Of a stretch of 64,000 nt of DNA, positions 23,738 through 58,600 are shown in pieces. The stretch spans positions 73,950 to 137,949 of the forward strand of contig JAUYMS010000035.1 of assembly GCA_030698625.1 (NCBI GenBank). Direction: 5' to 3'. The stretch is from Candidatus Omnitrophota bacterium (GTDB taxonomy: Bacteria > Omnitrophota > Omnitrophia > Omnitrophales > Aquincolibacteriaceae). Position numbers and translations under genes: made by a program. How positions within the stretch are numbered: position 1 is the stretch's first letter; the number at the start of each line of letters is the position of its first letter. The notes under the pieces are model-generated. The model was given only the letters and a program-made list of their open reading frames with translations, made no database searches and was not told the DNA's origin.

Positions 23738-23778
23738 CTGAGGCACCTCCTTTTCTTAAGATTAGTACTGCCTGCTGA

Positions 23779-36418: not shown

Positions 36419-39400
36419 ATGCGGACTATGGCTAAGCCCTATCTCTATCGTGCGATCGCCGTACTCGTTGCGACGACGTTTTTAGTGTCGGATCTTACGC
36501 TGCCCGCGTACGCGCAGGAGACGATCGGGGCGCCTTCTTTGGAGACAATCCCCGCCGATCTTTCATCCATTGACGTCCCTGTCGATTTAGGCACGGTTGA
36601 AGATTCCTTTCAGGGGAATACCGGTAAAGTTGTTGTGCTCATACAGGATGCCCACTCGATTCCCGATGCGCAGCGAAGTGTCCGGGAACTTATTAACCAT
36701 TTTCAATCACGGTACGGCGTTTCGTTGGTCGCTGTCGAAGGCGCTGCCTCCCGGCTCGATGCCCAATTATTTAAGAGTTTCCCCGACCAGCAGTTGCTCA
36801 AGGAAGTCATTTCCGAATACCACGCTGAAGGAGAAATTGCCGCAGGTACAGAAGCGGCGCTGTTTAACGAAACAGCGGCTGTTTATCACGGAATCGAAGA
36901 CTGGGATCTCTACGAAGAGGGACTTGCGCATTACCTCCGCACGACCGAACTGCAGGCTCAAATTACCGCAAGTCTTGAAACCCGCCGCGAGGTTCTGGAA
37001 GCAGAAAAGGAAAAAGTTTATTCCGAAGAGCTCCTCGGCATCGACCGGATTCTGCAGGGATTTTACGCCAATGACAGCGACTTGCTCGAACTCGTGCAAG
37101 CGCTGGCGCACTACCTGAAACCCGATTCCGATACGGAAGTGGCCCTTCTTTTGGCAAACAGTGAACGCGATCCCGACGGTGCGGTTTCCCTTGAGGATGA
37201 AGTCGAAGACATGGCCTGGCGTATCAAGACGGAATTGGCCGCGCTTGACGCAGCCGGGGACCTCAAGGCCCTCAACCGGAAAAGCCAAACCTTCTTTACC
37301 TCAGAAATCAATGCCGAACAGATGGCCCTTTTTCTCGATGAGATGTCGGCCAAGCACGGGCTGAGTTTTAAAGCCTCGCCGGTGATGCGCCGGCTCATGC
37401 AACGGCATCGCCGCCTGCGCGATCTTAGCGGAAGCCGCTTTTTCGAAGAGCTCAATCGATACATCGGGGATGTCAAAGAATCCGTATTTCGCACGGATGC
37501 CGAACGCGGCTTGGACGGCGAATTCGAAAATTTGAGGTTACTTTTCAAGCTCTCGAAGCTTGAAGTGAGTTTTGATGAGTGGCAGAAGTTGGGTGCGAAT
37601 GATGCCGTTCCTCAGGAACTAAAATCCCTTTTTGAATCGCACCGCGCTTTTTACGAAAACTCCGAGTCTCGTGACGATGCCTTTCTCGGCAATCTCACGA
37701 AGCTCATGAAACACCACGATGCGGCCGTCCTCGTGGCCGGCGGTTTCCATACCGACGGCCTGACCCAAAGATTCCGCCGGCACAATATCTCTTACTTGCT
37801 CCTCGCTCCGCGTATTCCTTCGATTCCGGAAAAATCAAGATACCAAGAGCAAATGCAGGGAGAGGTCAGCTGGAAGGATTATTTCAGGGCCGAGGACGGC
37901 CGTATCAATCTTTACGAGGCCTTCGCACGGGCAACCCGTGACCGACTGTTGGAGCGAACCACGGCAGGTTCTCGCGCAGAAACCCTCAAGCTCTGGCGCG
38001 ATGAAATCATCCGTGATTTGGCCGCGCGCGGTGAGGTTGAGAGAGCGGGCGAACATACGCGGCTGTTGGACGAAGTCAATGAGGCACAGGCAGCCGGGAA
38101 TGAGTGGCAAGAGAAGTGGATGGCCAATATCAACGGTTTTTTCAAAGGCCTGGAGCGCTTGCAGATCAACGGCGAAATGAATCAGGCCAATGTGCTAAAG
38201 CTCCTGCAGCCGGCGAACATGATAGCGGCCCGCACCGGCCCGGCCCAGTTGAGTTTGGGCAATCCGGGCCTTGCGATTTTTGCCGCGCCGCTTACCGCGA
38301 TCGATCGATCCGAGTTAAGAAATGAAGATGGGATGCCGGAGCCGATGCAAAGAGTCCTCGCGGACGCGGCAGGCAAGATAAACCGGACTGCCGCCATCGA
38401 CGACGAAGTGCTGAAGAAATACAGCAGGTCGCGTGAGGGTATGCGCATGAGCATTTTCAGGCAGGCGCTGGCGGATCTCGTGACTGCGGGTTACTTCGAG
38501 GGTACGGAGTTTCCTTTTCTTCTCTCCGGCCTCGTCAATAATACCCAAAAGGAATTCCAATTTTTTTCCAAACGGATTCGGGACAGTGCATCCCTGCGGG
38601 AAGTTATGACCCGGCTCTGGCAAATACACCGCAAATACAGTCGTTTTGTCGATGACGTGAACGAACGCATTCTGGCTCAGGCCCCGATCGGAGAAGATGG
38701 AAAAGTTCTGGGGCTTGTGATGCAGGTCATCGAGGAGCAAAATGACGAACAAACGAACCCGCTCTATTCCCGGCCCGACGGATTCATCATTCTCAACCTG
38801 GCGGCTCTCATCGACAGCGCGCGTGATGTGTACGGAAACGAATCCGTCGCCCACGAGGCCGGGCACGGCATGGCCCATTTGATCGATAATGTACCGTCAA
38901 ACCTTCCGGAGCACTTGGAGCTCGCAGCCAATTGGGCTGCGGCGCAATTCGCGGGAGTCGAGGCGATGGCCGCTTATGCGAACCAGGTCTTGGACGCGCA
39001 CATTCGTTCGAGCGGCGCAGATCGCGTTTATCCCTATTTTGCTACGCCGATTCTGGTCTTTGCCGAAGAGGCAGGCATTCGGCTGGAACGAGAGGATGTG
39101 GCCAGGAAGAATGCGGACAAGAGCCGTATCGAGGCCTACCGTCAATACTACCGGAGCCTCGCGTGGAAAGCGAGCCGTTCGGGTTCCGAGCGCTCCGAAC
39201 TTAGGGCCGGTACGAGCTTTTGGAAGTCAAAACGTTTATGGGTCAGCGCTGTCTCAGCCGGACTTTTGGCATTTGCACTATGGAGGTCAATACCGCCGGG
39301 AGAGGCGCCGCAGCTTGAAGCTCCTCAGGCAGAACCCCGCCAAGAGCAGGTCGTTGCAGAAGACCCGCCGGTCTCCGTAGCGCCGGCAGTGGAACCCGCT

Positions 39401-42400
39401 CCGCAGGAAGCAACCAAAGAGGAACCCGTTGTTGAACTCCCTGCGCCCGTCGCGGTGGTCCCGGCCGAAGAAGCTCCGGCGCCCGGCGAATTGACCGATG
39501 ATGAAAAGAGGGTCATCGAAATCGCGCGCCGCCACGGAATTGAAATTACTCCCGAAGAATATCGTGAAATGATTCAAATTCTAAAGGCGAGCCAATCGCG
39601 TGACATCGATTACCGCGTTAGCCACGAAGCGGCATTGCCTGCGGCACAGCACTTGATTCCCGGGGCGGCTCAGATATTTGGTGAAGGCGAAGGATTGTCC
39701 CTTACGGGGGATGAGGCGTTAAGCGCCGAGGATTGGGTGGCGAAAGCCATTGTGCCCTGGATGATGATTTATGGCGTGGACTACCACGAAGATTCCTGGC
39801 AGCAACGGGAGTTTATGGATTCTCTGCGCTATGCCCAGCCGATTACTCAAAAGGCACTCACCGATATGGTCAATGCGGGCCAGATCACTAAAGATGACGA
39901 GCTTCCGGATCTTTGGCGCGGGCTCGGCTTTTTGAATGTGCTCGACGACGATGAATGGGTTGTGCTAGACAATGAGTGGAGTAAGGTCCCGCGAGTGAAA
40001 TTCAAGAGCTATATGGGTTTTCTCATGATGACGGCTCTTTTGGAATACCAGCATCGCGTGGTTGAGCAATGGGGATACCCCGAGCTCTTTCCGCGCGGCC
40101 CCGAACACTGGTATCTGCCGCAGAATTTTTATAGCGAACTAGTCTTTTCGTTGAATAATGAAAACTTCGACCTCATGAAAGCGCGGATATTCGAGCGCAG
40201 GATCTCGGAACAATTCACCCGTATCTATTTCATGAATATGCATCGCGATATATGGCACGACCTCTATGTGCCCGCTGAAATCAGGCTGCGGGGTCAGTTG
40301 CGGGAAGCTTACCCTCACCTCGCCCTCCGGATGGCCGGCGACCCGGAGAGCCAATGGCGTGTTAACTCGCTGTCGGACAAAGAGGTCTCCCGTTCTATTT
40401 TCTTTCAGGTCTTATCCGAGCGTTCATTTTGGCCGGAAGGTGCAACCACGATTCGTGAAGTCATTGAGAGTGATATCTTTCAGCGGACTATCGACCGTCT
40501 CCTAACCCTGCGCAGCGAAGGTCTCATCGCCGATTACTATGCTCCGGGCAATCCGCCCGAGATGCGCCAGATACTGGCGAATCTTCAGGCGGGCCGATAC
40601 GCCGTCCTTGTGGAGTCCGGCCTGACAGGGAAAATCAGGGATATGGATAGAATTGAGGCTGACTACATTCTCGGAATCGATTTTGCGAACACCTTGCCGC
40701 TTGATGCTATTCGCCTCCGGGCGACAGCCGAGAGAAACAATAGTATTACCGAACCTGATGATTATGATGTTCGTCAGCGGCTGTTACGTGATCTTGCCGT
40801 GGAGACGGCCTTTGGCCTGGATTTCGGCGCGCACTACACGGGCGCGCGTGAGATGGCGGAAAACGAATTCGATATGGAAGCCCTCCGGGCTCTTTATGAC
40901 CAGCGGACCGACATCGAGCCCGAACTCGAGATGTTCTGGGGCCGCGACCTCAACCGCAACGGCCGTCATGATTCCGGGGTAATCAACGGCAGTAACGGGG
41001 CGCGCAGGCGCCTCGAAATTCCCATGAAGTATTGGGAACTGATCCTCATTCTTTCTTCTGTTCCTGAGGGAGAAGACCTGAATCTCCGTCCGGATATTCA
41101 ACGGCATGTCCGCGAACTCTTTTCGGCTATGACGCATCACCCGATGTGGGAACAGGAATTCAACTTTGATGATGAACGGACCGGTTCGGTTCAGGTCGGT
41201 GCCGTCATCGGAACGACGACAAACCTTTTAATTGACGGGTGGGAAGACCCCGCGGCGAGACTGCAGGCGCTCGCGACGATCTTCCGGGATCCGGCGACGC
41301 ATCCCGTGGTTGATAGCGTAGGTGATCCGGTGATGGTGGACGGTCAGGCGGTTGAGCGTACTCAGCGTGAGACGATCATACGCTATGGCGTGAGAATGCA
41401 TCACATGTGGCTCAATGAAGCCCGGCCCTCAGAGGCCCAGATGCAGGAAATTATTGCGAGTTTCGAGACAGACCCCCTGGCGATTCGAAAGTACGGCCCC
41501 GAAGTCATCGCTATGGCCGAACACTTTGCCAAGTCGACAACGGACTGGGAAACGACTCAGAGAGATCAGGAAAGAGTGACCGTTCGCCTGGAGTCCGGAG
41601 TGCAGGCGCGTTCGGAACTTAGGTCAATGGAAGAGATCTATGCCCGGACTTTGGAGGAATACGCCGCGGGCATTTACAAACTTGAAGACCGTATCTTTGA
41701 ATTGCGCGCCGACGAGGGAGTGGTCGACAGCGGAATTTCAGACCTGATTAATCTGCACATGGGACCGGATGTATTTCGGGATCCGTTAAAGCTCTTGATT
41801 CTGGATCACGCCCTGTGGCGTTTAGCCGAACCCGGCGCAATTCGCCCTGAAGTGATTATGCAGGCCATTACCATGAACGACAGCCCTGCTGACCAGTTGA
41901 AAAGGGCATTGCTCATCGATGTGCTCGGAAGATTTATGGGATTGAATCCCAAATATGACGGTTTTTTCAAAGGGGTGCCCGACATGATGCCGGAAAATGA
42001 GCCGGCTATGGCAGCCGCTCGGCGAGCCATTGAAAGGCAGGGAGGAGAGAAATTGATCGGAGAGCCGCCGAGCCGTAAAGATGACGAAGATTTTATGAAG
42101 GCGATCGCGGCACAGCATGTACCGATTCTGCCGAGAGCGACTCTCGAAAACGCACTCCTGCCCGTAACGGGCCCTGAAATCCTGGGCTTCATCTTTATAA
42201 ACGGGAATGGACAGGATAAAGAGGTCGAGCTTGAAGGCGTTAAGATCTCGACGAAATCCCTGCAAATGAGTAATCCGAGAACTGAGCATATGTTTCAGGT
42301 GCTGCGCCGCAGCGTCGCCGACAGCTCCAAGAACGGAGTGCCCGAGAGTTTTGAGAAGTCGGCACAGGTGCAGGCAATATTTGCGAGGCCCACCACCGAA

Positions 42401-45400
42401 GGGGCAGAAGCTACCCGAAGCTATCTACTGGGTTTTCGCGACAAAGACAATGTCATTTTATTTACGCAGCCCGATGATTTTCATGTTTCGCGTGATCAGC
42501 TGAGTGAAATCCTGGAGCAGAAAATCGAGGACGGACCCATTTCCCTCATCGCTCCGGTAAATTTTGAGAATGGCGCCGAATACAGTTTGACCTATCTTGT
42601 GAGTGAGGCTCGGCAGGACGGTGCGCGCGTACAAGGCGGTGTCGGATGGGTGGCCCCCCTTGCCGCATGGAAGAGCGAGGGGACGTTTCCGGCTTACGGG
42701 GATCTTAAGGCCCTGAAGACCCGATTAAAGGAATACCCTTGGAGTACCGATATTGGTGCCGTCATTATTGTGGATGATGAAATACAGATCGTAAAACGGC
42801 AGTTTCACCGATTGTCTTTGTTTCCCGTGCCGAGCGAACCCTCGCAGGAAGACGGCTGGAAACGTACGCGAATAGCGGTTTTAAACCGGCTTCGCCGCTG
42901 GGATGAACGGAGGCAGGTCCGCTTCTACAATCTCTACCGTGTTCCCTTTAAGTACAATGTGGGCGATCTGGAGCATGAACCCGGGACGGCCTTGGTTCTG
43001 GTGCCGGAGTGGAAAAGCCCGAAAGACGGCGTGTTGCGAAAAAAGACGCCGCCCAAACCGGCTCCGAATGATCTTAAACCGAAAGACGAAGATCCGGAGG
43101 TTGTCGCCGTTGGCACGCGAGGTGAGACATACAGCTCGGCGTGGGGTGATGGTGATGCGAGCACGCCCTGGAAACAGAAGAAGCGCTCGGAGCTACGAGT
43201 ACCGGATGACTTTGACGAGCTAGATCCCTGGCGGGATGAGCCCGAAGGGCCGCGGTATGAACCGCGTGACAAAGGAGCCGGATTATGGCTCGCATTGGGC
43301 GTGCCGTTTGTTTTCCTTGGGACTTTGGCAGCTTCACGGCTCGGGTTTGAACAGAGATTTGGATGGTCGGTTGGTATCGCTGCAGCGATCAGTCTTCTAT
43401 ACTGGGCCTTCGTCTCACTGATTTTTGAAAACGAAGCGCAGGGAAGGCGTCCGCTCTATGATGGTATCAGGATTACCGACGATCATATGGCTCTTGAAGA
43501 GGTGACCGAATTGCCGCGGATGGAATTTTACCTGTCGGTGATTCAGTCTCAGCGGCCGGTCGGTGTCGTGATCGCGAGCGAACTGCAGATGCGCGAAATC
43601 CGGACCGATCACGTTTTGGGAATTTGGATCGACGGTACTTTGGTTTACGAACCCGGTCTCGACGGGGAGCTCAATCTCGTAACAAGTACTGCGCCCGATT
43701 TGGACCGGGAACGCATCGCGATGGATTGGGCGGCGCGTCATCGCCCGGCGAATACACAAGTTTCCATTACATACCAGAGACCACCGATCCAAAGCTCCCG
43801 GCAGAGGTCCGAGTTGCGCCTGACGAGGCGGAGTTTCTTTCCTGCTGCCGCTGCGGGTGCGGCTGCATTTTATGCGACGGTCACCGGAGCTTCCGCACAG
43901 GAAGCTAAATCACGAAATCCATTGCTTCAAGATCCCGATCTCCGCGAAATCTATACGAATACCTACAAAAGCCTGGTTGAGCTCCGCGCCCCGAACGGGA
44001 TGCCTTACAACCAAACCCCGCGCGCGATCAAGCCTCTGGAAGGCTGGTTTAAATCGGCCGACGTCGGGTTTATGTGGATGGCCGATATTATTGCCGCAAT
44101 AAATCACAAGGACCATCCCATTGTGGGCCACTCCTCGCCCGAAGCCGTCAAGGAGCGAATCCGGAAATCCATTAAACAATACAGGCAGTTGGTGAGGGAC
44201 CACGGCCTTAAGATCAAGCACCCTAAGACGAATGCAGAAATTAACTCCGGAATTATTCCCGAAGTGATCGAAAATAAGCAGGGCGAGCTCTATACCTTGA
44301 AACAGGAAATCCCCGGGCAGGATGAGATTGCACAGGCAGACCGCGAAAAAGGCTATGTTTATGCGGCCTATGACATGATGATTCTGACGGAGCGCTTAAT
44401 GCGTCTGGCCGAGATCTTTAAGGTGGGAGCCAATATCGTGCCCGAGTTGGAGGACGGCGAGATCGCGCGCATTGCCGCTGAGTTGGTTGCCGGTACGAAC
44501 TACGGCGCCTTCCTCGACGGCAATGACAATTTCCACTCTCAGGTATTTGTTCCGCAGGACGGCACACGGAAGGGGCAGCATATCCGCAGTAAATGGAAGA
44601 TCGATAACAAACACACCGAAGCCAAGATGATGTTGCCTCTGATCAGGATGGGAATGATTGCTCAACCGGGTCAGGATTTGGGCAACCGCATCGCCGAGGG
44701 GAATCGTATCTGGGAAAAGATGTTCTTCCGCTGGGAGCCGCGCCGGGTCGGCGATGAGACGCTCTATATATTAGAAGGCGACGGAGAACGAAGTGCCTTC
44801 ACCGAGTATTTCGGCAATCTCTTCTACGATGAAGCTGAGGATTCTCCCCATACGGAGGGCCTTAGCCACGGAAATTATTATCGCATTGCTGAGCATGCCG
44901 GTCGGGCGCGCGGGCATGAAGTTTTCACGACGGCACCCGGCATCGGGGCCGATCGCAAATACCATCAGATGGGCCTAAATGCTTTCACCTCCATTGTGGT
45001 AGTTGGCCCTGCCTTAGCACTCACTACGGGCAGCCAGGCGGCAATCAACAACTTTAAGAAGTTGTTTGCTCTCGGGAAGCAATGGGGCTCTTATGTGGCC
45101 GGTTGGGGGTTCGCCGATGCCGTTGATCCCACGACAGGTGTGGCGGTTGATCCCAAACGCCTATTGATGAACCAGGCCTTGATCCTGGAGTCATTGAATT
45201 ACCCGATTCTGCGTGAACTGGAAAAGCGCATGCCGTGGTATCAGGATGTGGCGCGTATGCGCCGTCAGTTGGATCACGATAACCCGCTGCCGGAGCGCGA
45301 ACCCGTCTTTCGCGTCAATGTGCCGTCCCGGTATTATCCGCGTTATGAACGTGCGCGGGGATTCCCGCGCGCCTCGGTCAACCGCTTATCGCGTGTCGTC

Positions 45401-48400
45401 ATCAGCCGCGTACAGGACGAAATTGATGCGCCTTTCAACTCTACGAATAAAGAGCATGTCCTTGCCCTGATGAAGTATTTCCACATGACCGTGGCCAATG
45501 TCTTTTCACCGGCTGTGGAGGCAACCGACGACGGTCTCCTTAATTACTGGGCAGGGCTTAAAAAATCACCGGCGGAACTCGTCGAACATTTTTTCTGGTG
45601 GTGGCAGGTCCGAGAGCTCGCTAACCATTATGGTGTGAAACTCGCGGAAATCGGCGATATCGGTTATTGGAATACACGTGCGATCGAAGCCCAATCCCTG
45701 AAGTTTGCTATCGATGAGTTCAAGCAAAAAGGGACACGGAATCGCTCGGAACTTCGGCAGGTTGTTGCCGCTGAAGAGCCTGAGTTTATTGAATTTGGCG
45801 ACGCTGATTCTTTGGTGGCCGACATCATTTTTAAGAGGGAAGAGCCGGTGCCCGGCGAAGAGACTCAAGTCATCAACCTTTTCATATTATCGGATTCGCA
45901 AATGCAGATCGGGAAGGAGGGGATCGTCGGTGCAAAGAGCAAAGACGGAACGGTTACACTCAAATACCGCGTGCAATACCGGAGCCAGCCGCGAGGAGCC
46001 TGGGACACAGGGGGTGAAATCGGTCTTGTTTTCTCAACTACAGACGGAACCTTAAGCGGCATTGATCCTCTGGATTTTCATGAACACAAACGGGGATTTG
46101 AGGGGGTTTCGGATGCCCTTGAGCTGTGGCTGAAGAGTCAATTCGATCAGAAACTGAATCGTGACAACGCGGCCCTGTTTCCGCGTCAGGTAGAGACTGT
46201 TGCCCTGGTTGCGGAGGAGAAACCTGCGGACCCCCTGGCCGGCACCATCTCTCTGGCACTCGAAAATATTGCGCGTTCTGATTTTAACGGTGTTGCGGAA
46301 GCTTTAAGCAAAGTCCCTGCCGTTGCGGCACAGGCACGCGAAGGCAATGGCGATACGAACGCGGCGATCAACCACGCTTATGAAGTCATTCTTAATGCCA
46401 TCGATCAGTTTCGAATGACTCATGATGTTTCACGCCTTATCGAGATCGCTTTCGACATCGAATCCAATGTCCCTTATAAGACCATTAATTTTGAATCTGT
46501 CAAACAGCTGCGCTTAAAAATTGACGGTCGGGCGAGATGGTTAGCGGAATCCGATGCGGATGACCTGGCGGAATACGTTCGCTTTCTCATAGCCCTCGAT
46601 ACGAGGGATAAGGAAGGCCCCCGGAAACAGCCCCTACAGATTTCCGCGCGGCCTGCGTTAATTGCTGCGGAGCGTTATGTGGCGCAGCGCATTCCGGGCG
46701 CCGCACAACCGCTGGCCGATTATGTGGAGCAACTTATCGAACAGCGCGTTCACCGCGGGCCTTATCGCAATGCCCTTCTTTTTGACCTTATTGGAATCTA
46801 CTTCGGCATGGCGGGAAAATATCCGTATGTCGGCCAGGAGGCATTAGGCGAGGCGGCGCTCATTAAGGGCCTTTCGCTTATCAAAGACAATGGACTGAGT
46901 GAAGAGGCTCGGCCACGCGCTAATCAGGCATTTAATGCCTATTTCAGGACGATCATTCAGCACAAGTTAAAAATACGCGATCAAGCGGGCGCGGTTAATG
47001 TTGCACTTCGGGCTGCTGTACTGCAGAAAGCCCACAGCGACCTCATCAGCGAAAGACAGGTTGAGAATGCACAACGCCTCGTGGAACAGCGCCCAGAGCA
47101 ACCCAGGCATGAACCGCGCGAGCAAAGGCCGGAACCGCCGGCTCAGGCCAGGCCGGAGGAGCCGCGTGAAAAAGCAGCAGCAAAAAGTACGGCTCAGACA
47201 GCCCCTCAGGTGGCGACCCGCATCAAGAAGCGTTTGGAACGGGCGATTGCTCAAGGAAAGATCGATTCACGGGCCGAGCTTGAGAAACTCTTAAAAGCAG
47301 AATCCGAAACGGCTAAGCGTGACCATAGCGTCGACTTTGATCTCGGAGACAAGGATCTCGTGAAGTTGCACCGTTTTACCGAAAAGGTCATCAAAGGTAA
47401 GAATGGATTAGTGGAGTTAATTCAAGCCCAGCGTGCGAGGTTCAAAAGCGCAGAGCCTGCGGCGGAAGCCGAAAAGACCGACGGTAACAAGAAGCGTAAA
47501 GAAAGAAAAAGTAAGAGGCCAAGCAAGGCCAGGGACGAAACAGCGGTTGCGTCGGCTGCCGAGAGTTCGAGCAAGGCCTCCGGCGCTTGGGAGAAGCATA
47601 TTACCGCATTAAAAAATGCGTTGAGGGATGAGCGCGCCGACCTGGTCCGCCAAGCCCTGCTTATGCTCGTTCCGAAATGGCGCAAACGGAAATACAAATT
47701 TGGCAACCGCGAACATCAAAGTCTTATGGAACAAGCGGTTGCCAAATACGGCAACCCGGAGGATAAGGAACCTGAAGATCCGCGCATTAAACGCTCTGAA
47801 CTGCGGGTTGGCGATCCTCGAGAGCTGCTGGCGAATCTGCTTCAGCATCAGCTTGGGACGGTTATCGGAGCGATGACAGAGGCGGTTGGAAATTTGACCG
47901 ACGATGCGGGTGAACCGGATAAGAATCTCGAAGCCGTGCTCCGGCTAACAGCTATTTTAGACCAATTCATGGCGGCTTTTGGTCCGGAAAAGCGGGGGTC
48001 GTTTTTCAGGGCCACTCACCCTCAGGGTCCCTTCCTCGCAACGCCGCATACGATCGCGTTTGGTGAAGAATATGCCCGGCTCAGCCAGGCGGATCCGGAA
48101 GGTAAAATCCTGACGGCCGATGAAGTGGCGGAACTCGATAGGAGCGCAAACTTTTCGCTGATTCATGACTCGTTTGTGCCTCTGCTGCCGCCGCTTGAAA
48201 AGTTTGTCGAGAAACTACGCCTCAAGCTGTCGACGACGCCTGCCGGTATCGACCCGGAAGATATTATTCAATTGCAGCGTGCGGTTAAGAACCTACAGCT
48301 CAGCGCTGAAGCTTTAATTGCCGATTTAGACACAGCAGCAGCGGCAGGCAGCGAAATCGCAGTCGCTCGCGAGCCGATTCTCATCGGCGTCGACGGCGAT

Positions 48401-50455
48401 CCGCGTCAGTTGATCGCAGACCTTCTCAAGCACAGTCTCAACAGTAAGCTGGGGACGGTTACGATGCAGGTCGACTTGCTGGCCGAAGACGTGGAGTTTC
48501 CCGACTCGCCGCGCAAAGACGCGACACGCTTGGAAACCATGCAGGGGGCACTCGCTGAAGCCGCGCGTTTCCTGAAGGCCTTCTTCCCCGGAGCGGGCAT
48601 CCCGATCTTTCAAGCTGATTACCAAGGAGCTCCCATTATTGTGACCGCTGAAACAGATTCCTATACGACAGAATACGCGGAATTAGCTGCACGGGGGGAT
48701 GAACAGCGCATCCTCTCTCCCGGCAGGGTGGCTCAGTTGGCACGGGTGGCGGAATTTACTTATATCTTCGGACGGCTCATGCCTTCCGTTCTGGAAGTCG
48801 AAACTTACTTTGAAATTCTCCTCATACGGTTGGAAACTGCCGGGGAGTTGTCTGCGTCTGAGGTTCAAGCGGTTGTTCTGGAAGCCCAAGAACTTCAGGG
48901 AATCATGCAAGAGGTTGTGCGACGGTTGAGGCAGCAAGGTGCCGAAGCGGTTCCTGTTGAAGGCGATGTTATGGATGAATCGCAGGCGGACCGGTCCGAG
49001 CTTAGAGCCGTAGATTATCAGGGTAAGGATCCGAAGGAACTGGCGGCTAATTTATTGGACTATCAAGTCGAAAAATATATCCACGAGATGCGGGAAAAGG
49101 GAGATCGCTACGATGCTTCGGACCTCGAAGCCGAAGACTATCTCAAACAGCTTTTTGAGAATGCGAATCAAGCCCTGGTTTTCCTGTCGGCCTTTGATTC
49201 GACAGGCCGGGGTCCTTTCTTTATGACGACGCACGAGGACCAGCCCTTTTTGGTGACCCCTAAGACCGCCGGGTTCGAGGCCGAAGGGCGGCGAGTAGCT
49301 TATTCGGTAGGAGAAGAGAAGAAGAGATTACTGACAGCGGGCGAGATGGCAGATCTGGATAGGCAAGTCGGGTTTGATTCCGTTCGCATAGAAATCGATA
49401 AGCCGTTCACGGAGCTTACAACTTATATCCGGCAGTTGCGGGACAAATTTTCCGGCACTCGGACGCTGGCGCCTGAAGACAGGCAAGAAATTGAAGCAAG
49501 ACTTGAGCACATCAAGACCGCATTGCAAAAGGTCACGGGAAAACTTAGGAGCGCTGAGCGCTCGGAACTGCGCAGTGCGGCGGCGGGCATTGCATTGCTC
49601 CTAAGGCCGCGCGAATTGGGTCAACGTCTGGCGGCGGTGGCGTTGCAACCCGAAGAGATCGCGGCATTGTCGCGGCGTTATGCCGAATCGATTGGTGTCG
49701 CCGCATTGGCGGAAGTCGTCTATGAATCAGCGCGGAGCCTCTCGGCGGTCGTTCGCAATCAAGATCCTGCAGATGACGATCTTGCGGTCCGGCAGCGCAA
49801 TCAGGAGACCATCCTTACCGTAGTGGCGGATATCGCGCGTGAGCTTTACGCCGAGACGGTTGCGGAACAAAATACGCTTATTTCCGAAATCCATTATGGA
49901 GCTCCGCTCGCGATTGCTATTGACGAAGATGGCGCGGTGATCGGATTCCCGGTTAAAGTACCCGCCGGTACTCTGGCGCGCTCGCTCGGCAGATTCTCTG
50001 AATCCCTTTTACAGAAGGTTCACTATGTTACGTACTATCAGGTGCCGGACATCTTGAGGCAGGTGGGTGTGGCCACCAAGCGGGTCGCTCCCGGCGGCAG
50101 AATTAAAGGGGAAGTCAGTTTAATCGGAGATGCCGCCGTGTCGAGTCCGTCTGTTTGGCAGATGACGGTCGCCGATGATGTGCGGGCCGAAGATATTGAT
50201 CCTTTCACAGCCGAGCTCCTGCTGGATATGATGGTGCTCGTCGGTGCTCTCGTGCACTACGGGCCGAAAGGCGAACAGATCCGTACTGCGGCTGATCCCG
50301 TCAAAGAACTCCTCGAACTCTACCCGGGCCTCAAGCCCATTCTCAATCAACGGGATATCGCGTACCAAGAGATCAACGGAAAGCCCTCCATCGCATTTGC
50401 GGTGCAAGCACTGCAGGACAAACTGGCCGACAAGGCCTTCGCCGTTTCCGCATAA
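36419..50455 (+). CDS. Giant multidomain RSELR protein 2 (4,678 aa)
   Basis: Start ATG at 36419 with GGAGG 12 bases upstream; a Sec signal peptide ends AYA/Q at residue 32. Order: TraB/Tiki-like domain (70-490; IQDAH His79, VEGA Glu107, GGFH His444); RSELR 630; zincin module with HEAGH 812-816; RSELR 925, then a membrane anchor (940-955) and a Pro/Glu-rich linker; a large unrecognised domain (1010-1730); RSELR 1731 and an unrecognised domain; RSELR 2256 with two membrane helices; RSELR 2463 followed by a Tat signal peptide and a glycosidase-like domain (2490-3105); RSELR 3109, then helical and Arg/Pro/Glu-rich sequence; RSELR 3792, 4192 and 4381 bracketing three related helical repeats; a final unrecognised domain. 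Much looks extracytoplasmic. The single open frame is clear; the role is unknown. Confidence 0.92.
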   Translation: MRTMAKPYLYRAIAVLVATTFLVSDLTLPAYAQETIGAPSLETIPADLSSIDVPVDLGTVEDSFQGNTGKVVVLIQDAHSIPDAQRSVRELINHFQSRYGVSLVAVEGAASRLDAQLFKSFPDQQLLKEVISEYHAEGEIAAGTEAALFNETAAVYHGIEDWDLYEEGLAHYLRTTELQAQITASLETRREVLEAEKEKVYSEELLGIDRILQGFYANDSDLLELVQALAHYLKPDSDTEVALLLANSERDPDGAVSLEDEVEDMAWRIKTELAALDAAGDLKALNRKSQTFFTSEINAEQMALFLDEMSAKHGLSFKASPVMRRLMQRHRRLRDLSGSRFFEELNRYIGDVKESVFRTDAERGLDGEFENLRLLFKLSKLEVSFDEWQKLGANDAVPQELKSLFESHRAFYENSESRDDAFLGNLTKLMKHHDAAVLVAGGFHTDGLTQRFRRHNISYLLLAPRIPSIPEKSRYQEQMQGEVSWKDYFRAEDGRINLYEAFARATRDRLLERTTAGSRAETLKLWRDEIIRDLAARGEVERAGEHTRLLDEVNEAQAAGNEWQEKWMANINGFFKGLERLQINGEMNQANVLKLLQPANMIAARTGPAQLSLGNPGLAIFAAPLTAIDRSELRNEDGMPEPMQRVLADAAGKINRTAAIDDEVLKKYSRSREGMRMSIFRQALADLVTAGYFEGTEFPFLLSGLVNNTQKEFQFFSKRIRDSASLREVMTRLWQIHRKYSRFVDDVNERILAQAPIGEDGKVLGLVMQVIEEQNDEQTNPLYSRPDGFIILNLAALIDSARDVYGNESVAHEAGHGMAHLIDNVPSNLPEHLELAANWAAAQFAGVEAMAAYANQVLDAHIRSSGADRVYPYFATPILVFAEEAGIRLEREDVARKNADKSRIEAYRQYYRSLAWKASRSGSERSELRAGTSFWKSKRLWVSAVSAGLLAFALWRSIPPGEAPQLEAPQAEPRQEQVVAEDPPVSVAPAVEPAPQEATKEEPVVELPAPVAVVPAEEAPAPGELTDDEKRVIEIARRHGIEITPEEYREMIQILKASQSRDIDYRVSHEAALPAAQHLIPGAAQIFGEGEGLSLTGDEALSAEDWVAKAIVPWMMIYGVDYHEDSWQQREFMDSLRYAQPITQKALTDMVNAGQITKDDELPDLWRGLGFLNVLDDDEWVVLDNEWSKVPRVKFKSYMGFLMMTALLEYQHRVVEQWGYPELFPRGPEHWYLPQNFYSELVFSLNNENFDLMKARIFERRISEQFTRIYFMNMHRDIWHDLYVPAEIRLRGQLREAYPHLALRMAGDPESQWRVNSLSDKEVSRSIFFQVLSERSFWPEGATTIREVIESDIFQRTIDRLLTLRSEGLIADYYAPGNPPEMRQILANLQAGRYAVLVESGLTGKIRDMDRIEADYILGIDFANTLPLDAIRLRATAERNNSITEPDDYDVRQRLLRDLAVETAFGLDFGAHYTGAREMAENEFDMEALRALYDQRTDIEPELEMFWGRDLNRNGRHDSGVINGSNGARRRLEIPMKYWELILILSSVPEGEDLNLRPDIQRHVRELFSAMTHHPMWEQEFNFDDERTGSVQVGAVIGTTTNLLIDGWEDPAARLQALATIFRDPATHPVVDSVGDPVMVDGQAVERTQRETIIRYGVRMHHMWLNEARPSEAQMQEIIASFETDPLAIRKYGPEVIAMAEHFAKSTTDWETTQRDQERVTVRLESGVQARSELRSMEEIYARTLEEYAAGIYKLEDRIFELRADEGVVDSGISDLINLHMGPDVFRDPLKLLILDHALWRLAEPGAIRPEVIMQAITMNDSPADQLKRALLIDVLGRFMGLNPKYDGFFKGVPDMMPENEPAMAAARRAIERQGGEKLIGEPPSRKDDEDFMKAIAAQHVPILPRATLENALLPVTGPEILGFIFINGNGQDKEVELEGVKISTKSLQMSNPRTEHMFQVLRRSVADSSKNGVPESFEKSAQVQAIFARPTTEGAEATRSYLLGFRDKDNVILFTQPDDFHVSRDQLSEILEQKIEDGPISLIAPVNFENGAEYSLTYLVSEARQDGARVQGGVGWVAPLAAWKSEGTFPAYGDLKALKTRLKEYPWSTDIGAVIIVDDEIQIVKRQFHRLSLFPVPSEPSQEDGWKRTRIAVLNRLRRWDERRQVRFYNLYRVPFKYNVGDLEHEPGTALVLVPEWKSPKDGVLRKKTPPKPAPNDLKPKDEDPEVVAVGTRGETYSSAWGDGDASTPWKQKKRSELRVPDDFDELDPWRDEPEGPRYEPRDKGAGLWLALGVPFVFLGTLAASRLGFEQRFGWSVGIAAAISLLYWAFVSLIFENEAQGRRPLYDGIRITDDHMALEEVTELPRMEFYLSVIQSQRPVGVVIASELQMREIRTDHVLGIWIDGTLVYEPGLDGELNLVTSTAPDLDRERIAMDWAARHRPANTQVSITYQRPPIQSSRQRSELRLTRRSFFPAAAAGAAAFYATVTGASAQEAKSRNPLLQDPDLREIYTNTYKSLVELRAPNGMPYNQTPRAIKPLEGWFKSADVGFMWMADIIAAINHKDHPIVGHSSPEAVKERIRKSIKQYRQLVRDHGLKIKHPKTNAEINSGIIPEVIENKQGELYTLKQEIPGQDEIAQADREKGYVYAAYDMMILTERLMRLAEIFKVGANIVPELEDGEIARIAAELVAGTNYGAFLDGNDNFHSQVFVPQDGTRKGQHIRSKWKIDNKHTEAKMMLPLIRMGMIAQPGQDLGNRIAEGNRIWEKMFFRWEPRRVGDETLYILEGDGERSAFTEYFGNLFYDEAEDSPHTEGLSHGNYYRIAEHAGRARGHEVFTTAPGIGADRKYHQMGLNAFTSIVVVGPALALTTGSQAAINNFKKLFALGKQWGSYVAGWGFADAVDPTTGVAVDPKRLLMNQALILESLNYPILRELEKRMPWYQDVARMRRQLDHDNPLPEREPVFRVNVPSRYYPRYERARGFPRASVNRLSRVVISRVQDEIDAPFNSTNKEHVLALMKYFHMTVANVFSPAVEATDDGLLNYWAGLKKSPAELVEHFFWWWQVRELANHYGVKLAEIGDIGYWNTRAIEAQSLKFAIDEFKQKGTRNRSELRQVVAAEEPEFIEFGDADSLVADIIFKREEPVPGEETQVINLFILSDSQMQIGKEGIVGAKSKDGTVTLKYRVQYRSQPRGAWDTGGEIGLVFSTTDGTLSGIDPLDFHEHKRGFEGVSDALELWLKSQFDQKLNRDNAALFPRQVETVALVAEEKPADPLAGTISLALENIARSDFNGVAEALSKVPAVAAQAREGNGDTNAAINHAYEVILNAIDQFRMTHDVSRLIEIAFDIESNVPYKTINFESVKQLRLKIDGRARWLAESDADDLAEYVRFLIALDTRDKEGPRKQPLQISARPALIAAERYVAQRIPGAAQPLADYVEQLIEQRVHRGPYRNALLFDLIGIYFGMAGKYPYVGQEALGEAALIKGLSLIKDNGLSEEARPRANQAFNAYFRTIIQHKLKIRDQAGAVNVALRAAVLQKAHSDLISERQVENAQRLVEQRPEQPRHEPREQRPEPPAQARPEEPREKAAAKSTAQTAPQVATRIKKRLERAIAQGKIDSRAELEKLLKAESETAKRDHSVDFDLGDKDLVKLHRFTEKVIKGKNGLVELIQAQRARFKSAEPAAEAEKTDGNKKRKERKSKRPSKARDETAVASAAESSSKASGAWEKHITALKNALRDERADLVRQALLMLVPKWRKRKYKFGNREHQSLMEQAVAKYGNPEDKEPEDPRIKRSELRVGDPRELLANLLQHQLGTVIGAMTEAVGNLTDDAGEPDKNLEAVLRLTAILDQFMAAFGPEKRGSFFRATHPQGPFLATPHTIAFGEEYARLSQADPEGKILTADEVAELDRSANFSLIHDSFVPLLPPLEKFVEKLRLKLSTTPAGIDPEDIIQLQRAVKNLQLSAEALIADLDTAAAAGSEIAVAREPILIGVDGDPRQLIADLLKHSLNSKLGTVTMQVDLLAEDVEFPDSPRKDATRLETMQGALAEAARFLKAFFPGAGIPIFQADYQGAPIIVTAETDSYTTEYAELAARGDEQRILSPGRVAQLARVAEFTYIFGRLMPSVLEVETYFEILLIRLETAGELSASEVQAVVLEAQELQGIMQEVVRRLRQQGAEAVPVEGDVMDESQADRSELRAVDYQGKDPKELAANLLDYQVEKYIHEMREKGDRYDASDLEAEDYLKQLFENANQALVFLSAFDSTGRGPFFMTTHEDQPFLVTPKTAGFEAEGRRVAYSVGEEKKRLLTAGEMADLDRQVGFDSVRIEIDKPFTELTTYIRQLRDKFSGTRTLAPEDRQEIEARLEHIKTALQKVTGKLRSAERSELRSAAAGIALLLRPRELGQRLAAVALQPEEIAALSRRYAESIGVAALAEVVYESARSLSAVVRNQDPADDDLAVRQRNQETILTVVADIARELYAETVAEQNTLISEIHYGAPLAIAIDEDGAVIGFPVKVPAGTLARSLGRFSESLLQKVHYVTYYQVPDILRQVGVATKRVAPGGRIKGEVSLIGDAAVSSPSVWQMTVADDVRAEDIDPFTAELLLDMMVLVGALVHYGPKGEQIRTAADPVKELLELYPGLKPILNQRDIAYQEINGKPSIAFAVQALQDKLADKAFAVSA
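38321..39190 (+). other. Zincin-like metalloprotease module (HEAGH)
   Basis: It lies between two RSELR copies. SVAHEAGHGMAHLID contains HExxH at residues 812-816, with two His and the catalytic Glu. A candidate third ligand is a Glu in the downstream FAEEAG helix. The module is about 290 residues and would be secreted if the N-terminal signal acts. The family is unassigned, so zinc peptidase activity is inferred from the motif only. Confidence 0.6.
43805..43898 (+). other. RSELR followed by internal Tat signal peptide
   Basis: RSELR (43805-43819) and then LTRRSFF (Arg2470-Arg2471), an alanine-rich hydrophobic core (PAAAAGAAAFYATVTG) and an AxA cleavage site ASA/Q. All three parts of a Tat leader are present, 2,470 residues from the N-terminus. 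Confidence 0.85.
43899..45742 (+). other. Alpha/alpha-barrel glycosidase-like module
   Basis: The roughly 610-residue domain after the Tat leader shows GWFKSADVGFMWMADIIAAI near its start and GHEVFTTAPGIG...YHQMGLNAFTSIVVVGPALAL later. These resemble DUF3131/GH144-like glucan hydrolases (S..dIG...l..laA, then an S..vv.P segment). Assignment is tentative. If right, it would act on cell-envelope or external glucans after Tat export. Confidence 0.4.
47807..49558 (+). repeat. Three tandem helical repeats (about 190 residues each)
   Basis: Repeats begin DPRELLANLL (about 47810), DPRQLIADLL (about 48395) and DPKELAANLL (about 49025). Each contains a middle segment like GPFLATPxTxxF...EYA and then ILTADEVAELDR. 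RSELR precedes the first and third and follows the third, but none separates the first from the second. The fold was not recognised; the amphipathic start is faintly like kinase dimerisation helices. Confidence 0.7.
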
Positions 50456-50491
50456 TTGCCATATTCTTCAGGTTCGGCTATTCTTAGGGGC

Positions 50492-52617: not shown

Positions 52618-55600
52618 ATGCGAAAAAAATCCGCAATGGGAGAACTCTATATCTGGCGCAAGTTTGTGGCAACGTGTGTCACGGTATGTTTTATCTTTCT
52701 CGACGTTTCCGCTTACGCACCGGCCGTTTATGCCTCGCCGGTTCTTTCCACAGCCTCTTCGGCCTATCAGATTCCTTCCGAGTTTGGTGTCATCGAAGAT
52801 TCCTTTACGGGCACAAACGGGAAAACGGTGATTTACATTCAGGATGCGCATGACTCGCTTGAGGCACAGCAGAATATAGCGGCGATGATCGATCACCTGG
52901 TGGAGAAGCACAATGTCAGGACCGTCTTCGAAGAGGGTTATGAAGGGCCGGTTCCGACTGACGACTTCTTCGGCATTGTCGATGACACCGAGGTGCGCGA
53001 AAAGGTGGCCTTTTATCTTCTTGATGAACTCCGCATCGGGGGCGCCGAGTATGCCCACATCAACCGCCGGCAGGATTTTAAACTGATCGGTGCCGACAGT
53101 ATTCAACTGCACCTGGAAAACGTCAATTGGTACCATGAGACGGCCAAGCTCCAGGAAGAGACCGCCGAAGAGTTGGAAGCCATTCACAAGAAAATCAAAA
53201 ACCTGGCCCACCGCAGTTTCCCAAAGCGCCTCAAGACCTGGATGAAGTTTAAAGAACGCTATGACGACGGTAAGCTGGATCTCGCTGATTACCTCATGCG
53301 GACCCGGGCCCTACTCCCCGGATATAGCTATTCCCAGATTGATCTCTTGCTCGCGACCACTCGCGGTAAGGATCCCAAGTTATTGGAACGCGCCGGTGCG
53401 ATTGAGGCGCGAAGCCTCTTTCGCGAGATTGAAAACATGGAAGGGGATCTCTCAGACGCCTATCTTCAAGATGACCGGGATCAGAGGATCTTTGAGTACC
53501 ATCGCCTGCTCCAGCTTTTTAGCCGGCTCAACCGGATTGAAGTAACTCCCGTTGAGTATGCGGTCATACAAGAGTCGCTCAAAAAAATCAACACCCAGCA
53601 GTTTGCCGATTTTATCGTTAGCCATACAAACAAATCGGTCGTGCTTTCCAAGCGTTGGGAAAAAGCCATGGAAAATGCGCGCCGTTTCTACACCATTGCC
53701 GGTGAGCGTGACCAAGCCATAGCTGCCCGCCTCGGAGAGTTCCTCAAGCAACCCGATGAAAATGTTGCGGTTCTCGTCTTCGGTGGTTTTCACAAAGATG
53801 CCATCAAAGAGATCCTTCGCAAAGAGGGCACGTCCTACCACATCGTGGCCCCTAAAATTTCCCGCCTCCAAGATAAACACAGAGAGCAGTATAAGCAATT
53901 GATGTCGGCGGGTTACCAGCCGATCCGTACTTCGTCGGGATTGAATACGGCCGCGCGAGTTCTCGGCGATATGTTAAAAGCCACGCGCAATCAGCAACAG
54001 GCCGAGGTCTTGAGGTCCGAACTTCGAACCATTGCGGACGTGGTTGCAACGATCAATGCCAAAAAATCAGCCGGCCTCTTCCCGTCCTCGCCGTTGCTTT
54101 TCAATCGCGAGATCGGAAAACAACTGCGCGGCGGCGGGGATCGCTCGGAGTTAAGAACCGCAAGCCAATACAACCGCCGGAGCCTGGGGGTCTACGAAGG
54201 GGCTGAGGCTTGGGACAACCTTCTGAAAAAGTTTGTTGATTATGTGAAGCCTAATGAACTCACCGGCTTTGTGCTCATGACGCGGGCAGACTATGAGAGC
54301 AAACGCAAGGACGATGACGTGCAGCCCGCCGAGTTCGTCTCGCTGACGGGTGGCCGAGAGGCCTTTTTTACCGCCTATCAGGGCGGCTTAAAGCAGGAAC
54401 TGGCAGAGGAAGTGCCGGCGCTGCTTAACCCGAATACCCGCTATGAACTTATTCGTGTTTCTCCCAAAAAGGGCGTTGATGCGGACGAGGCGATGAATCC
54501 CTTTCTGGTCATCATCTACGAAGCGGCAGAGCAGCCGGATCGTTCGGAATTGCGTATGGAAACCGCTCGGCCGGGCGATAACCGGGAAAACGGAAACGGA
54601 GAAAAGAACGGAGACGGCGTGAGGGGTGCTTTTCGCCGCATCATGCGAATCACGGCAACACTGGTGCCGGGCCAGGGTATCGGAAAACGTGTGATCGTTG
54701 CGGTGGCGATTGTGGTGTCGAATATCGGAATCGATGTACCCGTTAATCTGCTTTTGAAGCCCGCTATCGTTCTCGGCGTAACCGGCCTATTCGCATTTTT
54801 CGGCGGAAGCCTCATGGCGATCGTTGGTGCCGTTACGGGTGTCCTCTTGACTCTCGTAATCGGCGGAGTCGTACGCACGGTTTATTACCTCGCACTGAAA
54901 GCGGCATTTTTCAGCATTAGCCTTGTCGTGAACAGTGCGATACGGATGCTCAATCTCAGCCCGAGATTCGATCTCCCGCGCTTTGACTGGCTGGATCACC
55001 GTATGATCCGCTTCGACGGAACGACGATGCGCGCTACGTTCATTCCTTATGGGGCCGGAAATTTTTCACCGATACTTTTTCTCGACAAAAAACTCAAGTT
55101 GCAGTCGCTGCATTATTTTGCGGACGTGTACGATACCTCGAGGCGGATCGAGGACACTGTCGCCCGCTTCTCGGGTGCGACACCGAGCGCCGCCGAACAG
55201 GTGCGAAAGAATTCGGTCTCCATTGCCGCGGCTCTTTACGCGACGCAGCTGGAATTAGAGACGTATGATTATCACCGTTTCAAGATCCGGGGATTGCACG
55301 GCTATAAGAAAAAACAGTTGCGCCGCTGGATTAGCCGTATTCGGGAGTCTAAGACATGGTGGGGCTGGGTGCAGTCCTTTTTTGCGTTGCGCTGGCTGAA
55401 AGCTTTTATATTTGAAAAGATTGTCGGCATCAAGCTGCTTGGCCCCAATGTCGGCTCACGGCCGATTCTCCTGCTCGACACGGCCGAACGCTTCGGTGAA
55501 GTCGTCTCGGACCTGAAGAGTGCCGCAGAACGGGGCAAGGTGGAGGTGGCGTCCTTGGCGCGGGTTTACCAGTTTGATGTGACCGAATTCGGAAAAGTCG

Positions 55601-58600
55601 CCGCAGAGCGCGCGCTCGAGGGGACGGCGCTCGCGCCGGAAGAGATCCGCACACGGTTCATCAAGCCGCTGATTAGCGAGGAAGAGATTGCGGAGCTTGG
55701 CGGTCCCGAGCGCTCTGAGCTCCGGGCGATTTCGGACGATGAAGAGATTGGCAATACCTACCGTGCGAAGTTGAAGGAAACACCGTACTTCCCGGTGATG
55801 CCGCGCGGTAAAGGTGCCAGATTCGCTGAAGTGGATGACGATGTAAGGCGGCTTATGCCGCTCAAGAACGAAATCGGAAGACATTTTTTTGCGCTCATGC
55901 TCATGTTTCCGGCGCCGAATCCGGACACGCTGGAATGGGTTTGGTATGACAATGTCATTCCGGAAGACGGTCAGGCATACACCTTTTCGAATGTGCTGGA
56001 ATACCATCGCCTGGCCCGGGTCGGTGAAGACCCAGAACAGCACCTCGAAGAATATGACTTTGTCTTCGCCATCCAGTTCGGCCATCTGAAGATCATGGTG
56101 ATGAATCCCATGACGGGACAAGCGTTGGATTCGGTGGATGCGCGCGAACTTGCGGCTAAGACTCCGCAAGGTGAAGAGTTTCTCGAATGGTACTCGCAGA
56201 TCCGGCGCCCGAAACTACTCCGCGATATTCTCTCACCTCCCAGGAGGCGCTATCGGTCCCGTGGGGATGATCGCTCTGAGCTTAGAGCGCTTCAGGAGGA
56301 TTTCATTGAACAGGTGATCAAGCCGGTTTCGAGATTAATCCCCGATGATGTGACGGTGCAGTCCGTAACGGGAGACGGAGGGGAGCAGGTGCTTACACTC
56401 CGGCACCAGATGGAATACCGCGGCGAGACAATCACCTTTGACTACCGGATTGAATTTGACGGCGATGACGTGGCGGCGCCGTCAAGGCCCTCGCTATTTG
56501 ACACCAATGTGATTCGCGTTCCCGCCGATGGGTGGGACGAGGATATCGTCACGGATGCACAGAACGCTTGGCGGAGGATGACGATTGCCGACCCGCGGCT
56601 TTATCCGCGTTGGAATCGAGATGTTTTTGAGTTGGAGAAGTATCAAAAAGAAGCGGTCTCGAAAACCTTGGATTCCCTGTTGGAGAGAGGGCAGGCACTG
56701 ACGGTTATGGCAACGGCGACGGGTAAGACCGTTGTGGGTTTTGAAACGATGAACCGCTTTTTGGCCGAGCGGCGCGCAGCCGCAGCGGGGGATGAGCGGG
56801 GAGCCGTTCTCTTCATCGTCGACAATGTGCGCATTCTCAAAGAAGCCGAAGAGAAACTTCATGACATGTTCGATAAAAAGGATGCCGACGGTAGCGTGAT
56901 CGAACAGAAGTTTACGAGCAGTCAGGTTTTTGAGGGGCATGAAGACTACTCGGGGGACGTTATTTTTGCGACCACGTCATCGCTTATGTCGGGGCGGTTG
57001 GAAAGTATCATGGCGAGTCGTAAGATCTCGCTGGCGATCTTCGACGAAGTCCATCATATGCCTGCGATGGAAAGCCGCACGCTTCATGACAAGCTCAGAA
57101 CACAGAGCCTCAACACCGGCTGGAATACGGTCTATCTCGGATTAACCGCAACTGAAATTCGTCCCGATCGTCTCAGCGTGCTTTCCTTTTTCGGGCGGCG
57201 TATCGCCTATGAGTACTCCATCATTGACGCCTGGGAGGAGGGTTACCTCGCTCCCATTACCCGAGTCACGGCCGATGACGATATCCTGCAGAGTATCGGG
57301 AGAACACCGGAAGACATCGGCCAAGTCGCCAGGAATTCACCGGAGGCACAGGCCTATCTTGCGATGCGCTATGATAAGCAACGCTTCGCATACTTGAAGC
57401 AGGTCTATGACGCGGTCACCAAGGATCAGTTGAATTCACAGACCCTCGTTATCGCACCCAACATCGAGAAGGCCCAGGAGTTGGCGGAATATTTCCAGGC
57501 AAAAGAAATCGATGCCGTGGCGCTTACGTCGGACGAGCAAATGAGCGACGATGAGCTGTTTGAATTTCAATACCTGGGATGGAAAAACGGGGAGTGGCCG
57601 GACGCCGTGCCGGTGCGTATCGGTAAGAAACCGACAAAGGCGGTCCCCGAAGCGGTTGTAGGAGTCCGCATTTTTCAAGAAGGTGTCGACGTCCCGGCCA
57701 TCCGCAACCTGATTCTCTGGGCAGATACCGATTCCGCGCTGCGTTTTACTCAGTGGTTAGGCCGGGGACTTCGCCCTGATCGTTTCAAGACTCATTTGAC
57801 GGTTGTGGATACCGTGGGGCTTTTCCGTAAGGCAAGCTTAATGCCCTATCTCGGCGGCTTGGCACGCGGACAGGCCCTGAAAAACAGAAAAAGAAAGAAA
57901 AAAGAAAAAGGCGAGAGAACTTCGGCGCCGCTTGACACAGAGATTATCGATGCCGTCGAGCTCGAGGGCCTGGTCATCCCGGGCGTTGATCTCGGGGCCG
58001 ACATCGATAAGACGGTCATGGACTACTTTTCTCAGGTCGGCGAACAGCTGGCAATGCGCTACCTCAGCTATGACCAGGTCCCGGAAAATGAATACTCGGG
58101 ATTGGACAAGTTTATTGCCAGGCGTGCCGGCTTCAGATCCGTGGAGGATTTGAAGCAGTTTCTGCGCGCAAAGGCAACGGGAATCAATACCAGCCGTGAG
58201 CGGCTTCGACCGGCATTTTTTAACGGAGCAACGTACCGCGAAGAAGACGGACCGGAGATCCGGCTGTCACCTTCGACGTTTATCATCTTTCAGCGGATCG
58301 GAAAACTCTTCCAGGAAGTCGTGCCTGAAACGGAGAGCGAACATCTCTACAAGATCTTTCCCGAGTTTAATCCCAAGAAATCCCGCATGATCTCAGACCG
58401 TGCGCGCAATATCGGAGTCGTGCGCACTCACATCTTCAACCGCAGCATTCAACGTATGAGCCAGGCACTCGTCGAAGAAGTCCTGGAGTCGGGAGCGGCG
58501 AGAGAAGACTTGGAGACGGAGATCTATCTCATCGGAGAAAGAGGCCTGCTTGAGGGGAATGAAATCGGTTCACTGGGGCTGCTCGCGGCTGAGCGCGGCG

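Follow-up and report, generated by a model that had tools for sequence, protein, structure and literature searches.

A Tat leader can act only where it forms a free N-terminus that faces the cytoplasm. What, then, could such a leader do deep inside a protein chain? Here we analyzed a 64,000-nucleotide stretch of the genome of an uncultured Omnitrophota bacterium (the stretch is called the window and the genome G000) in which a Tat-type leader, at 43820-43897, begins at residue 2468 of a giant ORF, directly behind the pentapeptide RSELR. Five other leaders in this genome lie behind RSELR, and six in relatives lie behind R[SA]ExR.

Giant ORFs and RSELR junctions in the window

The window holds 21 RSELR, every one within its three giant ORFs, and the features considered below are the following (a slash marks the expected cut of a leader).

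2..13234, + strand: giant ORF 1, running off the left edge of the window, with seven RSELR junctions within it
11738..11830, + strand: second RSELR plus Tat-type leader of the window, RSELR-STTRREFLKQLAATPIALQMAG..., in giant ORF 1
36419..50455, + strand: giant ORF 2, a proposed polyprotein of 4,678 aa in a single open frame with nine RSELR junctions
36419..36514, + strand: Sec signal peptide that starts the whole giant ORF 2 chain, MRTMAKPYLYRAIAVLVATTFLVSDLTLPAYA/Q, read from the translation
36509..38305, + strand: head domain of giant ORF 2 (IQDAH / EG / GGFH), Tiki/EreA/ChaN-like by weak evidence
38306..38320, + strand: RSELR junction 1 of giant ORF 2, behind the head domain
39191..39205, + strand: RSELR junction 2 of giant ORF 2, then a hydrophobic anchor-like segment
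41609..41623, + strand: RSELR junction 3 of giant ORF 2
43184..43198, + strand: RSELR junction 4 of giant ORF 2
43805..43819, + strand: RSELR junction 5 of giant ORF 2 (residues 2463-2467), preceding the Tat-type leader
43820..43897, + strand: Tat-type leader of giant ORF 2, LTRRSFFPAAAAGAAAFYATVTGASA, cut expected before Q (Q from 43898)
43916..45304, + strand: beta-1,2-glucanase-like (alpha/alpha)6 domain, module residues 38-500, from alignment, AF2 and Foldseek
45743..45757, + strand: RSELR junction 6 of giant ORF 2, at the end of the glucanase-like module
47792..47806, + strand: RSELR junction 7 of giant ORF 2
48992..49006, + strand: RSELR junction 8 of giant ORF 2
49559..49573, + strand: RSELR junction 9 of giant ORF 2
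52618..63999, + strand: giant ORF 3, continuing past the window, with the same type of head, RSELR junctions and helicase modules

Giant ORF 3 measures 9,109 aa from stop to stop on the contig; at 56272-63999 it carries two tandem ResIII/DEAD helicase modules, the second without an RSELR of its own. At 1028-1408 of giant ORF 1, a 2'-5' RNA ligase-like domain (PF13563, E=1.4e-11) stands directly behind an RSELR. A Tad/Flp pilus locus that includes a prepilin peptidase (17963-25600, - strand) lies between giant ORFs 1 and 2, and a TTG-started alpha/beta hydrolase ORF (50456-51433) begins one base past the stop of giant ORF 2.

Tat-type leaders directly behind RSELR

The residues after junction 5 read LTRRSFFPAAAAGAAAFYATVTGASAQ, with a twin-arginine motif, an Ala-rich uncharged core and A-x-A before Q, and the segment 43820-43897 agrees with the Tat consensus as TRRSFF, AAAAGAAAFYATVTG and ASA/Q. 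The initial annotation had reported a complete Tat signal peptide of this build directly behind an internal RSELR, and we confirm it, also when the segment is taken on its own and compared with the Tat leader rules as a regular expression. The leader had been placed four to five residues after RSELR; it begins closer, with the T as the second residue and the RR from the third.

Tat-type leaders in giant ORFs were scored by an ad hoc pattern, here called strict, of [STND]RR.[FL][LIFVMA] together with a hydrophobic stretch free of charged residues. Its terms were set on cases already known from this genome, and the relatives provide the independent check: of the six leaders that it identified there behind the junction, five were new and one (G010) had been seen earlier. 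The giants of G000 have six strict leaders within 25 aa after RSELR compared with one elsewhere in 230,101 positions (p=5e-9), and the giant ORFs of relatives have six after R[SA]ExR compared with one elsewhere (p=3e-9). A looser Tat pattern still gave six after RSELR and eight elsewhere (p=2e-6). Examples in this genome are RSELR-MDDDSRLTRRDFLKVVSLGA and RSELR-AMSRRGFLERVMKTAVLASL, along with the leader at 11738 of the window, and relatives contribute RSELR-VTRRNFMKNVFTQGLALYGF (G011) and RSEMR-AGAEGKMNRRAFLRWGGAASLGLMSLPGTTFAAW (G022). Hydrophobic segments after RSELR numbered 22, against a mean of 9.7 and a maximum of 20 at random positions over 200 draws. We conclude that the position of the Tat-type leader behind RSELR is not due to chance. 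Since a Tat leader needs a free N-terminus in the cytoplasm, and since such leaders are repeatedly placed behind the junction in several lineages, we suggest that the junction is opened inside the cell.

RSELR is maintained as a peptide

RSELR was counted in 1.2 Mb of G000, about a third of the genome and biased towards RSELR-rich contigs. In this sample, 37 ORFs of at least 1,500 aa (237,344 residues) hold 292 exact copies, and the shorter ORFs, 447 in total, hold 4, confined to two ORFs. Other orderings of the same letters occur in the giant ORFs at a mean of 1.03 copies, and single-residue variants at no more than 4 copies each. Across the genome a codon-degenerate RSELR pattern gave 334 matches, compared with 26 for the reversed pattern. 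The 292 sites are encoded by 211 distinct 15-mers, indicating that selection acts on the peptide and ruling out a DNA- or RNA-level element as the basis of RSELR. Sequence conservation drops away beyond the five residues; the residue at +1 is A, S or T at 178 of 296 sites, and acidic residues follow. The serine codon of RSELR is TCN at 98% of sites compared with a 60% background, and the first Arg is CGC at 57%. Because TCN and AGY serine codons cannot be interconverted by one silent change, the TCN bias fits one ancestral site followed by strict selection on the residue, and the Ser and Arg codon usage suggests that the RSELR junctions of G000 descend from one ancestral copy.

A signal that acts at the peptide level and separates modules could also work on the ribosome, through 2A-like skipping of the nascent peptide or through an internal translation start, and no protease would then be needed. 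The Leu codon at junction 5 is TTG, a possible start, behind AGAGG. Across the genome sample, however, TTG accounts for just 74 of the 292 Leu codons (CTG for 88), and Met within the first 8 residues after RSELR is found at 33 sites with 37 expected, which rules out internal translation starts at or after RSELR. The 2A mechanism needs a longer conserved peptide ending in NPGP, whereas the conservation of RSELR falls off outside its five residues. We consider a ribosomal mechanism very improbable.

In related genomes the junction takes the form R[SA]E[L/V/I/M/A/T]R, and each genome has its own preferences. RSELR dominates in G000, G011, G015, G031 and G035, and RSE[VIM]R in G001, G004, G012, G017, G022 and others, while RAEVR, RSEAR and RSETR occur in G028, G033 and G007; in other classes and the remainder of the phylum, RSExR is near background. 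A fourth residue that varies by lineage in an otherwise largely fixed motif is what would be expected of a cognate recogniser that co-evolves with its site.

RSELR lies at the start of independent modules

Pfam scans of unsplit stretches of the giant ORFs identified mostly ordinary enzymes and domains, among them enolase, transaldolase, glucosamine-6-phosphate isomerase, UDP-glucose dehydrogenase, RmlD and PfkB, as well as methyltransferases, HD and receiver domains, a Fic domain and ResIII helicases. The median module length is 517 aa. None of 73 RSELR sites fell inside a Pfam domain, compared with 8.5 expected by circular shifts (P=1e-4). The domains can begin very close to the motif: UDPG_MGDP_dh_N begins at residue 3425 behind an RSELR at 3416-3420, with 4 residues between, and RmlD at residue 4655 behind an RSELR at 4648-4652, with 2 residues between. 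The giants have several independent modules per ORF and a conserved peptide at the module boundaries, two of the features expected of a polyprotein. There is good support for RSELR as the mark of an independent module's N-terminus: the peptide is exactly conserved over free codons, it interrupts no domain, Tat leaders cluster behind it, homologues at 35-41% identity keep the arrangement, and the leader falls outside the conserved fold. The enolase, at residues 306-822 of the giant ORF L086:903-15872 (+), is permuted, its C-terminal barrel standing before the N-terminal domain.

The glucanase-like module and its homologues

The module behind the leader of junction 5 was modeled with AF2; pLDDT stayed under 50 over residues 1-36, and most of 37-500 was predicted confidently. 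The RR segment therefore lies outside the conserved fold and is not part of a folded domain, consistent with the reading of it as a leader. The best Foldseek match of the model is the beta-1,2-glucanase 8xuj (E=1.9e-11, TM 0.71 by target length), and the beta-1,2-glucanases 5gzh and 5gzk and related glucoamylase-like structures were matched as well; 16 of 17 PDB matches with E<=0.001 are putative glucoamylases, beta-1,2-glucanases or cyclic beta-1,2-glucan synthases. By Foldseek of the AF2 model, the module has the (alpha/alpha)6 fold of the GH144/GH162-like clan, at 10-15% identity to the beta-1,2-glucanase-type PDB structures. It has no Pfam match and no PDB sequence match and is not assigned to GH144 or GH162 by sequence. 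On this modeling, we consider that the module would fold like a beta-1,2-glucanase, with the activity as a prediction.

An order-wide genome search identified homologues of the module with confidence in five other genomes (G038, G033, G015, G016 and G010) and two marginal ones, and a GTDB scan of 84,980 genomes returned only five loci, all of them Omnitrophota. As a check, the annotation had proposed a look for standalone homologues of the glycosidase-like domain that start with this leader; none was found among the 84,980 genomes, the loci examined lying in long ORFs or at contig edges. Identity between the homologous domains is 35-41%, and at this distance a leader-like segment is kept behind the junction (RSELR-LERRKLLTLALSG, RSEMR-SLRKSILYVLAAGGLLISSTVGFAAD, RSEAR-KNRRQFLGIFTAG), and it is Tat-, Sec- or anchor-like. 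RSELR is followed by LERRKLLTLALSGFGVMAW in the G015 homologue, RSEMR by a Sec-type leader ending in GFAAD in that of G016, and RSEAR by a Tat-type leader in that of G010; a second copy of the module in G038 has MTRRVFISRMRDVAGFFATAAILG. The G033 homologue has no leader directly before the domain. G038 (L061, L163) also carries giant ORFs that lack RSExR and repeat other short words (RVQGY, ATGYR), with three adjacent matches to the module.

These homologues bear on the view that the junctions are scars of gene fusion, in which stop codons were lost, RSELR is a tolerated linker, the chain stays uncut and the Tat leader is a functionless fossil. Such an origin would explain why the modules resemble whole genes, and some of them keep a Met right after RSELR; it would also agree with TatC going undetected in G000 and with no protease being known. 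A passive linker, however, would not keep all five letters at 292 sites with hardly any single-residue variants, the residues after RSELR show no excess of Met, and the leaders persist behind the junction in homologues of 35-41% identity and in other lineages. We regard fusion scars as unlikely. The initial annotation had offered RSELR as either a former or a proteolytically exposed N-terminus: the module start stands, and the relic is weakened by leaders that persist in divergent homologues.

The head domain of the giants

All RSELR giants of at least 1,500 aa in the sample start with a leader, which in the intact ones resembles the MRTMAKPYLYRAIAVLVATTFLVSDLTLPAYA/Q of giant ORF 2, and a head of the IQDAH/EG/GGFH type, except those at the edge of a contig or of the fetched sequence. 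Heads lie at 36509-38305 and 52705-54012 of the window and at L034:13420-14823, and 54 of the 58 Omnitrophota genomes searched have 1-34 copies, including genomes without RSExR. An alignment of 25 heads, with 18-32% identity to the first row, has H49, E77, G128, R388 and G411-H414 invariant. The catalytic His/Glu/His set of the Tiki/EreA/ChaN proteins corresponds to H49, E77 and H414 in 25 of 25 heads, and D is found at position 47 in 20 of 25. In an AF2 model of the head (pLDDT 84.7), the invariant residues are found at strand C-termini or in adjoining helices. Pfam matches of the heads are weak, to ChaN for three members and to erythromycin esterase for two; PF04187 matched weakly in six genomes, in at least two places inside heads, the best at 9.9e-6 and below the cut-off. 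Of the natural proteins compared by Foldseek, EreC and Bcr135 ranked highest, at a non-significant E=0.15. In G005:C88 (L144-L146), a 23,964-aa open frame starts with a head, and the 19,935-aa part of it that was read has at most one RSExR.

It can be proposed from the head that the whole chain passes through Sec and that the secreted, Tiki-like head cuts RSELR outside the cytoplasm, the internal leaders being anchors or stop-transfer segments and not Tat signals. The intact RSELR giants do start with a Sec leader, behind which comes a head in which H49, E77 and H414 are invariant, and the weak ChaN and erythromycin-esterase matches point the same way. The Tiki-family endopeptidase VvRRSP uses E3900, H3902, E3930 and H4030, and the His-to-Glu spacing of 28 in the head is that of VvRRSP (PMC6254334). 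Against this, the leaders fit the Tat consensus [ST]RRxF specifically, which a plain anchor does not need, and many modules look like cytosolic enzymes that use cofactors. Some genomes in which RSExR is not enriched, for example G005 and G039, have heads too, and the structural match to EreC and Bcr135 is not significant. We find cutting by a secreted head quite unlikely. By analogy, we speculate that the head may be a candidate processing protease; a secreted head would fit poorly with cytoplasmic cutting unless it acts before export.

Proteases and Tat machinery

Two further protease types were considered as the cutter and rejected: a clostripain-type C11 protease is absent from all 58 genomes, and a caspase-type C14 protease is present in only 3 of 58 and is not co-distributed. 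The genes adjoining the giants in the window, comprising the Tad pilus locus with its prepilin peptidase, sensor kinases, a hydrolase and FBPase, include no evident processing protease. TatA was found in G000 (C41:48917-49066, E=1.8e-19), and TatC was not detected in this assembly, which is 95% complete. Both TatA and TatC were found in relatives with the same arrangement, for example G004, G010, G011 and G033, and several relatives are without both.

A model for processing at RSELR

We propose that G000 encodes a genome-wide set of giant polyproteins joined by RSELR as a processing junction. A sequence-specific protease would cut at or next to RSELR in the cytoplasm, probably during or soon after synthesis, and the released module would have an N-terminus of its own and behave like any ordinary protein. 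The majority of modules would remain cytoplasmic enzymes, and the minority in which a Tat, Sec or membrane-anchor leader comes straight after the junction would be targeted separately; the leader at 43820-43897 would direct the beta-1,2-glucanase-like domain, in folded form, to the Tat pathway. We infer cleavage, its compartment, the protease and export from the features of the encoded chains, and on this footing RSELR is probably an intracellular processing junction of polyproteins whose leader-bearing modules are targeted separately. The presence of typical cytosolic enzymes among the modules (enolase, transaldolase, PfkB, UDP-glucose dehydrogenase, RmlD) favors the polyprotein reading. Arguments against cytoplasmic processing are that the giant's Sec signal peptide could export the whole chain, with the internal Tat leaders useless unless cut first, and that G000 has no detected TatC, the module no standalone homologue and the G033 homologue no leader. 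A broader statement is that this lineage expresses a large share of its enzymes as chromosomal polyproteins. A dedicated protease, perhaps the Tiki-like head of each chain, would cut them in the cytoplasm at one pentapeptide particular to the genome, and the modules would be sorted by their own Tat, Sec or anchor signals; we give this about an even chance of being correct.

If the giants are polyproteins, they would be strings of ordinary enzymes, much of their oddity would be gone and they should be annotated module by module after splitting at R[SA]ExR. Large-scale gene expression in the viral style would also be unusual for a cellular genome. The idea can be tested directly through the internal Tat leaders, which would be meaningless unless the junction were opened in the cell.

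Comparison with known systems

The giant ORFs of Omnitrophota are among the longest bacterial genes. They have been published, with coat, adhesion or polysaccharide-degrading giant proteins proposed (Seymour et al. 2023, PMC10066038), and their roles were described as poorly understood (PMC10066038). A text search of PMC10066038 found no mention of polyprotein or cleavage. The giants described here resemble those of Seymour et al. (PMC10066038) in phylum, in very long ORFs with few annotated domains and in some transmembrane helices; in contrast to the published reading, the fixed junction peptide, the internal leaders and the shared head argue for processed polyproteins.

The leader at 43820-43897 is like Tat signal peptides in its [ST]RRxF[LF] motif, its moderately hydrophobic Ala-rich core and the A-x-A before the expected cut, and differs from the usual ones in lying about 2,470 residues into a chain, directly behind RSELR, where it would require prior cleavage. 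The module behind it shares the (alpha/alpha)6 fold with GH144 and GH162 endo-beta-1,2-glucanases and with the domains of cyclic beta-1,2-glucan synthase, and is unlike GH144 and GH162 in its low identity and lack of a sequence match, with an activity that is predicted. The head shares with Tiki/EreA/ChaN proteins, including VvRRSP, an H ... E(+28) ... GGFH pattern located at strand ends; it departs from them in Pfam matches below cut-off, a non-significant Foldseek result, a large helical insertion and an activity that is putative.

Our search of the literature on RSELR, Omnitrophica polyproteins and bacterial polyproteins, which covered few subscription journals, returned nothing relevant, and in particular no description of a bacterium whose genome encodes dozens of enzyme polyproteins with a single junction peptide in common. 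Viral polyproteins and, in a different form, the bacterial MARTX toxins, which are autoprocessed multi-effector proteins, carry many functional modules per chain, separated at specific peptide sites. The giants likewise hold many modules in one chain with a specific peptide between them, at which we propose cleavage. The giants of the window are not of the MARTX type, having no Pfam match to MARTX (RTX) repeats, the inositol-phosphate-dependent MARTX cysteine protease or a viral-type protease. Unlike MARTX toxins and viral polyproteins, the giants consist largely of ordinary enzymes and use one junction in common across dozens of chains, and the full polyprotein reading would potentially be a new kind of system.
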